A stretch of 64,000 bases of DNA from Succinispira mobilis DSM 6222 (GTDB taxonomy: Bacteria > Bacillota > Negativicutes > Acidaminococcales > Succinispiraceae): contig NZ_KB913028.1 of NCBI RefSeq assembly GCF_000384135.1, positions 244,351 to 308,350 on the forward strand, read 5' to 3'. Made by a program: the position numbers and the translations under genes. Shown piece after piece: positions 44,878-46,952 of this stretch. The notes beneath the pieces were generated by a model that saw only the letters and a list, made by a program, of their open reading frames with translations, was not told the origin of the DNA and did not search any database. Within the stretch, counting starts at the first letter, position 1. Each line of letters starts with the position of its first letter.

Positions 44878-45043
44878 TATGATAAATTATAACACAGAGC
44901 AAGCGAGAAGAGAAAGAGAGGGACTGTGTTAATGATTTATAAATATAGGCAAGTTTATTATGGGCAGATATCTGCCGACTTAATTGGCAAAAAGGGGAAT
45001 TTTAAAGTCGGCCTAAGTGATGTTTACCTGTGCGGGTGTTTAT

Positions 45044-45655
45044 ATGGATAATTACGCTTTTTGGTTGACATCAATTATTATAATTTTAATCCCGGGTACA
45101 GGTGTGATTTATACAATTTCCACAGGTCTTATCGAGGGGAAATATAAGAGTATTTTTGCTGCTATTGGCTGTACATTAGGAATTTTACCACACCTAGTTA
45201 TAAGTAGTTCTTTATCGACGGTACTATTGCAAGTTAATAATTCAATGTTGACAATTATGCGGCTAGTGGGAGCAATGTACTTACTTTATCTTGGTTTAGG
45301 CATGTTTTTTATTAAAAATAAGCTTGCATTTGCCGCGTCTAATTTGGGACTTAATAATTGGGTAATAGTTCGACGCGGGATATTGATTAATTTATTAAAT
45401 CCCAAACTTACACTGTTTTTTTTCTCGTTTTTACCACAGTACCTGAGTTTGGAGCGTGGTAGTTATGTAGAGCAATTTTTTCTGCTGGGATGCGCATTTA
45501 TGCTGTTGACCTTACTAGTGTTTATTAGTTATGGAATTTTAGCAGCGCTAGCTAAAAACATATTTGCGCGTTATCCGACGGGTATAATTGTCTTACAGAA
45601 AGGATTTGGTCTGGTGTTTATAGGTTTTGCTCTAAAGCTTGCGTTGGATACTTAA
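45044..45655 (+). CDS. LysE/RhtB family amino acid exporter
   Basis: 203 residues from ATG 45044; 27 bases upstream are open but give an unlikely Cys-containing extension and neither start has a strong ribosome site. Six hydrophobic segments; LTSIIIILIPGTGVIYTIST is the RhtB N-terminal signature and RRGILINLLNPKLTLFFFSF is the second one. It exports amino acids such as threonine, leucine or lysine. Divergent from the MocR regulator. Confidence 0.88.
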   Translation: MDNYAFWLTSIIIILIPGTGVIYTISTGLIEGKYKSIFAAIGCTLGILPHLVISSSLSTVLLQVNNSMLTIMRLVGAMYLLYLGLGMFFIKNKLAFAASNLGLNNWVIVRRGILINLLNPKLTLFFFSFLPQYLSLERGSYVEQFFLLGCAFMLLTLLVFISYGILAALAKNIFARYPTGIIVLQKGFGLVFIGFALKLALDT

Positions 45656-45760: not shown

Positions 45761-46084
45761 CTAGGCTGTTAACAGAAAGTTAGGATCAGTGGTTTGACTC
45801 AGCTTGCTGATTTGCAAACACATACAGATTGCCGAAGTGGCCTTTAGATAATTTTGAATTACAGCGACTAGTAGCGTATCTAGCGGCGCAAAATTATTAA
45901 TCGGCTTGCCGAGATTTAGAGTGTGTTTATGAATTCGTTTTTGTTTATCTTGGATAATAAAAGTAAGATTTTGACAAGACAGGGCCCGACTAGTTAAACT
46001 TTGACTGAGTTCTTCTGCTAATTTACTAATTTGAGAATCTAAGAGAGAATTGACTTTGATAAATTTAATGTTTGACATTTGCAT
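45761..46084 (-). CDS. Small protein resembling a Y-family DNA polymerase little-finger domain, stand-alone
   Basis: 107 residues. LDSQISKLAEELSQSLTSRA, LTFIIQDKQKRIHKHTLNLG, then LDTLLVAVIQNYL and CLQISKL follow the alternating helix/strand pattern of the DinB/UmuC little-finger (impB/mucB/samB C-terminal) domain. No palm, fingers or thumb domain is present. ATG at 46084 has GGTGG 6 bases upstream. A promoter and LexA-like box are directly upstream, so the gene is not simply the tail of a longer frame. It could be a domesticated domain or the remnant of an internally deleted dinB. The similarity is by eye only. Confidence 0.55.
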   Translation of the reverse strand: MQMSNIKFIKVNSLLDSQISKLAEELSQSLTSRALSCQNLTFIIQDKQKRIHKHTLNLGKPINNFAPLDTLLVAVIQNYLKATSAICMCLQISKLSQTTDPNFLLTA

Positions 46085-46096
46085 AACAACACCACC

Positions 46097-46110
46097 CGAA
46101 CATATGTTTA
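46097..46110 (-). promoter_or_regulatory. LexA (DinR)-like SOS box
   Basis: CGAACATATGTTTA matches CGAAC-N4-GTTCG at 8 of 10 fixed positions. It lies between the promoter and the start codon of the little-finger-like gene, covering roughly +5 to +18. Confidence 0.6.
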
Positions 46111-46535
46111 TTTTTGTTTAGATTTTATCATACAAAATCTCAAAAAGCAAGCTTTGATTTGAGAAAAAATGTTGGTCTTTAGATAGTTTTTAGGGAAAGA
46201 AAAATAGAGAAAGTTAGTGATTCAAGGCTACTTTTCCGCAATAAGTCCTGCCTAAACGTAATAAATACTGGGATAGTTTGGTGAAAACTAGTAATACTAG
46301 TTGACTTTTAAAGAATAAAATTGTGCCGGAAAATTTTATATAAAAAAAACTTAGTTCGCAGCTTAATCTTGTTAAGATGTTTTGGCTTGGGGGTATCAGT
46401 TAATATTATAGTTTTGTTTTCAACGCACAGCTATAGCTTGTTTTTGCTTGAGCTCTGTCAAAATAAAGACAAAAACAGCGGCTGATTGTTAGTAAAAAGT
46501 GTCTTATCAGCAATATAAAGTAGCGTGAAAAAGAA
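46111..46535. other. Gene-free spacer, minus-strand promoter at its left edge
   Basis: On the minus strand TTGCTT (46145-46150), a 17-base spacer and TAAAAT (46122-46127) form a promoter for the little-finger-like gene. The remaining ~385 bases are AT-rich with no ORF or clear structure. Confidence 0.55.
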
Positions 46536-46560
46536 AATGAGGTAGCAGTGCTACCTCATT
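46536..46560 (-). terminator. Terminator after the rhodanese gene
   Basis: 11-bp perfect stem AATGAGGTAGC/GCTACCTCATT with 3-base loop; read on the minus strand it runs into TTTTCTTTTT. Confidence 0.85.
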
Positions 46561-46574
46561 CTAGCTTAGTTGTT

Positions 46575-46952
46575 TTACCAGGCGTTGATGCCACCTTGCA
46601 CATTATATAATTGGGTAAAACCATATTTTTGCAAAATTTCAATGGCTTTAAGACTGCGGTTACCACTACGGCAAATCACTAAAATAATTTTATCTTTGGG
46701 TAATTCTTGATAGCGAGCTTCTAACTCCTGGAGCGGAATTAATACAGACGGCTCAATGTGTCGCTCTTGATATTCTTCTAAGGTGCGAACATCTAAGAGT
46801 AAGTGGTCTGGCTTAAGATAGAGTTCTTTGGCCTGTTGAGTGGTGATATTTTTAATGCGCAGCTCATTGGCTTGTTGAGCTTGACGATCAGCAGCAAAGG
46901 CATATCCAGCCACGATTAGCGCTAAAATAGTTAATAAAATTGTTTTGCTCAT
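46575..46952 (-). CDS. Exported rhodanese-like sulfurtransferase
   Basis: 125 residues. Hydrophobic signal sequence 4-20 with a cleavage-like AFA-AD. Single rhodanese domain with LLLDVRTLEEYQERHI and active-site loop CRSGNRS (Cys94), then the usual NVQGGINAW ending. It transfers sulfur or handles thiols outside the cytoplasm; the partner is unknown. Stands alone, head-to-head with the next small membrane-protein gene. Confidence 0.9.
   Translation of the reverse strand: MSKTILLTILALIVAGYAFAADRQAQQANELRIKNITTQQAKELYLKPDHLLLDVRTLEEYQERHIEPSVLIPLQELEARYQELPKDKIILVICRSGNRSLKAIEILQKYGFTQLYNVQGGINAW

Follow-up and report, generated by a model that had tools for sequence, protein, structure and literature searches.

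A small gene behind a LexA box in Succinispira mobilis encodes an orphan protein weakly resembling the little finger of Y-family polymerases

A 107-residue protein of Succinispira mobilis, here termed P0001, is encoded by a single gene that lies directly behind a LexA box and, as judged by sequence comparisons, is little-finger-like, although it is not a member of the little-finger family (IMS_C) by that family's own tests. The reading that fits best, to which a little less than an even chance is assigned, is that P0001 stems from a little finger, has diverged far from it and has been domesticated as an SOS protein with a tuning effect on lesion bypass. The gene is best taken as a testable lead rather than a proven finding.

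Gene, promoter and LexA box

The window, i.e. the whole stretch of DNA analysed, comprises 64,000 nt of S. mobilis DSM 6222 (assembly GCF_000384135.1, contig NZ_KB913028.1, positions 244,351-308,350, forward strand). The P0001 gene (45761..46084, minus strand), as delineated by its ORF, codon use and profile searches, starts with an ATG, and a further in-frame ATG follows two codons downstream. Its codon use scores +0.072 bits/codon in its own frame and is negative in every other frame; the score is matched by none of 2000 base shuffles and lies slightly under the lowest (0.095) among 29 long ORFs of the window. The 107-codon gene of the original prediction is thus borne out as an ATG-started ORF with coding-like codon use. 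The product is slightly basic (9 K and 2 R versus 4 D and 2 E) and ends in ...TTDPNFLLTA; no Rfam family and no PADLOC match was found in the region.

The gene stands alone, with a convergent LysE-type exporter gene (45017-45655) on one side and a rhodanese-type gene (46575-46952) on the other. An inverted repeat in the interval between the exporter gene and the P0001 gene (45697..45725), seen by eye and absent from the scanner list, is a possible shared terminator. Directly behind the rhodanese-type gene is a strong terminator-like hairpin (window 46534-46562), with 13 pairs followed by a T-rich stretch.

The predicted TTGCTT-17-TAAAAT promoter can indeed be read on the minus strand, with the -35 element TTGCTT at 46145..46150 and, after a 17-nt spacer, the -10 element TAAAAT at 46122..46127; the -35 element is weak (3/6), so the promoter is missing from the scanner list. 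Some 12 nt past the -10 element, and 12 nt before the ATG, lies the LexA box, which reads CGAACATATGTTTA on the plus strand (46097..46110). It is followed by GGTGGTG (46090..46096, minus strand), a probable ribosome-binding stretch, the same 7-mer being present after the box that precedes the Y-family polymerase gene of the genome.

The inner sequence GAACNNNNGTTY by itself occurs at chance level, with 4 copies in the window versus 3.3 expected. When it is extended by the outer C to CGAACNNNNGTTY, 17 sites are present in the 2.09-Mb genome, six of which are placed in promoters, i.e. those of recA (1570266), lexA (1302776), uvrB (696660), the Y-family polymerase gene (1460724), the P0001 gene (290447) and a YdjM-family gene (375638); the remaining 11 fall within ORFs. 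If the first and the fourth of the inner bases must be A/T, five sites in promoters and three within genes remain, from which, as a rough estimate, ~0.4 strict-type intergenic boxes are expected by chance; a chance box at P0001 is even less likely, because it is placed right behind a -10 element. The genome has a lexA gene, and its own box type overlaps the promoter/leader of the P0001 gene, as in a LexA/SOS regulon. The LexA-like box (8/10) of the original prediction was, in this respect, undersold, and the reading of the promoter as SOS-type finds good support in the like boxes that the core SOS genes carry. On these sequence grounds the gene is very probably under SOS control, in which case it would be induced by DNA damage.

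The YdjM-family gene (Pfam PF04307, over the cut-off) has its LexA-type box (G000:C1:375638-375650; L142 1501-1513) before a TATAAT and probably belongs to the SOS regulon as its sixth member; in Escherichia coli, ydjM is a LexA-regulated gene. The cell division gene zapA (L086 1015-1278) adjoins lexA on the opposite strand.

Resemblance to the little finger

The single Pfam match of P0001 is IMS_C (PF11799; E = 0.0081, 17.0 bits, under the 20.7 cut-off), and, when IMS_C was run over the six frames of the genome, the true polymerase came first and P0001 second (E 0.02, 16.1 bits). The NCBIfam model for DNA polymerase IV places P0001 residues 10-97 on positions 251-338 of 352, i.e. with the entire little finger in register, at E 0.075. 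An unrelated NCBIfam model (pseudo-rSAM), however, outscores polymerase IV on P0001 (E 0.002), so that such E-values mean little alone; this identity, and that of a PHROG terminase (E 0.04), were taken as chance matches with no fitting context. A PDB sequence search gave no match for P0001.

Little-finger profiles were compared with 5000 shuffles. A combined profile, built from the little fingers of 37 relatives, gives P0001 11.5 bits, with none of the 5000 shuffles scoring as high. The UvrX-type profile (9.7 bits, 4/5000 shuffles as high) fits better than the DinB-type profile, which gives just 1.9 bits (286/5000). Among 2920 frames from all DNA retrieved, those scoring above P0001 with the combined profile are Y-family polymerases or pieces thereof, with one helicase-like exception. 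In tblastn searches with polymerases against the locus, several UvrX-type little fingers land weakly on the P0001 frame. Evidence on the other side comes from hhalign of P0001 against the little finger, which gives a probability of just 7.6% (P 0.0046) over 46 columns. The part of P0001 closest to the little finger, by profile and alignment comparisons, is residues 15-60 (codons at 45905..46042, minus strand), matching helix 1, strand 2 and strand 3.

The identity with the little finger of the genome's own Y-family polymerase is ~17% in the alignment, in which the little-finger markers KS[IL]G (strand 1), RLR (end of helix 1) and RxLG (strand 4) are absent from P0001; a C-terminal clamp-binding motif of the QLSLF type is likewise absent. 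The proposal that the sequence resembles only the little finger is supported as a weak but specific signal, in that IMS_C is the sole Pfam match, P0001 ranks second in the genome and shuffles score lower with the combined profile; on the other hand, the match is under the cut-off, pseudo-rSAM scores better, and the markers and clamp motif are missing.

The structure comparison that had been proposed as a check depends on the alignment supplied. From the single sequence, AlphaFold gave a helical model of poor quality (pLDDT 71, with the remaining four models at 42-54), which was set aside. With 14 little-finger rows, P0001 was modelled as beta-alpha-beta-beta-alpha-beta (pLDDT 78.5, five models 72-79), and the PDB chains closest to this model are little fingers of Y-family polymerases (Z 10-13). 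The model is biased by these rows and counts only as compatible with a little-finger fold.

Descent and possible roles

Descent of P0001 from a little finger is, overall, judged somewhat the better wager. The sole Y-family polymerase of the genome is of the UvrX type (L121 959-2209; G000:C1:1460758-1462008), and no DinB-type polymerase was found in the genome. The C-terminal tail of this polymerase, IHYRQHNSFHSR, differs from the IHPxSxFR that its relatives have.

The leader of the P0001 gene is like that of the polymerase gene, in that both have the box in the same orientation (AAACATNNGTTCG), then GGTGGTG and then 11 nt to the ATG. The two start regions share 25/48 identical positions, the top value among 175 start sites of the window, and the similarity of the N-termini, MPDILHIDLN and MSNIKFIKVN, ranks second among the same 175; the runner-up start sites, however, reach 24/48 and 24/48, making the leader rank merely suggestive. 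These features hint, at the level of sequence, at a polymerase copy that may have lost its middle. According to the original prediction the gene could be the scar of an internal deletion that left dinB control fused to the last domain. Taken further, this would be a duplicated Y-family polymerase gene of which the leader and last domain remain, with a functionless product. The polymerase-like leader lends this idea weak support, but a dead scar would not be expected to keep an intact, coding-like frame of 107 codons after divergence to ~17% identity, and the search near the gene revealed nothing left of a palm, fingers or thumb domain. The intact frame implies, rather, that P0001 has been kept as a protein, and a functionless scar is improbable.

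The preferred reading, that of a domesticated little-finger derivative, can be outlined as follows. DNA damage would activate RecA and lead to cleavage of LexA, freeing the box just behind the -10 element, so that P0001 would be made alongside RecA, UvrB and the sole Y-family polymerase; the gene would thus be a real LexA-repressed single-gene SOS unit. The protein would most likely derive from the little finger of a Y-family polymerase, of which a copy perhaps lost palm, fingers and thumb, and would since have diverged under selection as a protein. Lacking catalytic domains, P0001 cannot be a polymerase, and, lacking the conserved arginines and clamp-binding tail of the little finger, it is unlikely to grip the clamp in the way that this motif usually allows. 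Its likeliest role may be that of a small adaptor or brake, induced in the SOS response, which would tune lesion bypass by binding to DNA, to the polymerase or to the RecA/clamp partners of the latter. Of the three proposals originally made, a domesticated domain fits best, whereas rivalry for the clamp by way of the standard motif is unsupported, the QLSLF-type motif being missing. More specifically, a free little finger may, as one possibility of rather low probability, serve as an SOS-induced non-catalytic regulator that limits or steers the UvrX-type polymerase, or that fills a damage checkpoint in a lineage without YneA.

The checkpoint is also the subject of the principal alternative, considered less probable than the preferred reading, i.e. 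that P0001, whether based on a little finger or unrelated to it, is a lineage-specific SOS division inhibitor in the role of SulA, YneA, SidA or SosA, blocking septation until repair is done. Such inhibitors are small, LexA-controlled and lineage-variable (PMC6851548, PMC4211646, PMC13396833). LysM proteins of YneA size are located behind LexA boxes in two relatives of the order (G003 L223 1522-1848; G004 L209 1169-1561); the S. mobilis genome has no LysM protein whatsoever, and no small gene besides that of P0001 follows a LexA box of the strict type in it, so that the checkpoint role looks vacant. A different inhibitor could, however, sit behind a weaker LexA box elsewhere in the genome. P0001, unlike YneA, SosA and SidA, has no membrane helix (19-residue hydropathy maximum 1.44) and, as an inhibitor, would thus have to act in the cytoplasm, like SulA, for whose family no Pfam match was obtained; the division-inhibitor reading also leaves the little finger as sole Pfam match unexplained.

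Two further explanations are both improbable. YolD homologues accompany nearly all YqjW/UvrX-type polymerases, with 3 exceptions among 207 (PMC6511836), and the S. mobilis genome has a UvrX-type polymerase without YolD; P0001 might therefore be a small SOS-induced polymerase partner of other descent that replaces YolD/UmuD. Within the order, however, YolD was looked for in 41 genomes and scores over the cut-off in none, though many carry UvrX-type polymerases, so that its absence is normal there and no substitute is called for; nor does P0001 have a match to YolD, UmuD or ImuB-C in Pfam or NCBIfam. The smallest chance is given to the view that the gene is simply an orphan, with a LexA box and a likeness to the little finger that each arose by coincidence. 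The weak E-values, the better score of an unrelated family and the fraction of a strict-type intergenic box expected by chance are consistent with coincidence; it would, however, require two signals, independent of each other yet pointing to one pathway, to converge on one gene, with the box directly behind the -10 element.

Known systems and distribution

P0001 is alike to the little finger of UvrX/YqjW-type and DinB polymerases in its size of ~107 residues, in an LAE...L....L.C helix-strand pattern and, when modelled with that family, in the order of its secondary structure elements, the UvrX-type little finger being the better fit by profiles. It differs in being free-standing, in scoring under the Pfam cut-off and in lacking KS[IL]G, RLR, RxLG and the QLSLF-type motif. 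The little finger of polymerase IV alone (residues 243-351) has been crystallized on the beta clamp, i.e. the domain folds and binds by itself (PMC4564189); that construct, by contrast with P0001, is artificial and retains the 303-VWP-305 and QLVLGL clamp contacts (PMC4564189). Stand-alone ImuB-C proteins and reduced ImuB have been described (PMC6511836, PMC12926913) and, like P0001, represent domains of Y-family proteins as separate SOS-linked proteins. ImuB-C, however, is beta-rich and located beyond the little finger, and even the most reduced ImuB still has thumb, little finger and ImuB-C (PMC6511836, PMC12926913). YneA, a LexA-controlled LysM division inhibitor, is likewise the product of a small single SOS gene but, unlike P0001, has a LysM domain and a membrane helix. 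YolD/YqjX, predicted to be an SH3-like barrel (PMC6511836), shares with P0001 a size of ~100 residues and an expected co-induction with a UvrX-type polymerase, but gives no profile match to it.

The SOS-linked Y-family derivatives found described comprise at least thumb and little finger, or the ImuB C-terminal domain, and, within the incomplete coverage of the literature search, a little finger that stands alone in nature was not found described. Were P0001 such a protein, controlled by LexA, it would imply that the domain is useful alone after damage, and would offer a direct test of a polymerase-independent role; should it prove to inhibit division, this YneA-less lineage would have a soluble inhibitor of a new kind.

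The short form appears to be confined to this genome within the sampling. Searches of 380 genomes from the class, 60 relatives, broader genome contigs, viral contigs, phages and plasmids gave no believable relative and no orthologue of 107 residues, a lack that the original prediction had named as speaking against it; the broader genome-contig and viral-contig scans required exact 8-residue peptides, so that remote relatives could be missed in them. The best matches in the class (L175, L179) are, on inspection, in unrelated frames. Among the matches listed for 81 genomes there is no other intact short IMS_C protein, the short IMS_C-like frames in relatives being chance frames and one frameshifted UvrX-type polymerase. 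Synteny through the neighbouring permease gene leads to two distant loci, and the one inspected (L232) has no P0001 counterpart. Since the genome is the sole member of its family among the relatives sampled, the orphan status of P0001 within this sampling is unsurprising. In one relative of the class (G079; L071, G079:C1:934600-938700, at 1859-2897) a UvrX-type Y-family polymerase gene is broken by frameshifts and has two LexA-type boxes, 27 bp apart, upstream.
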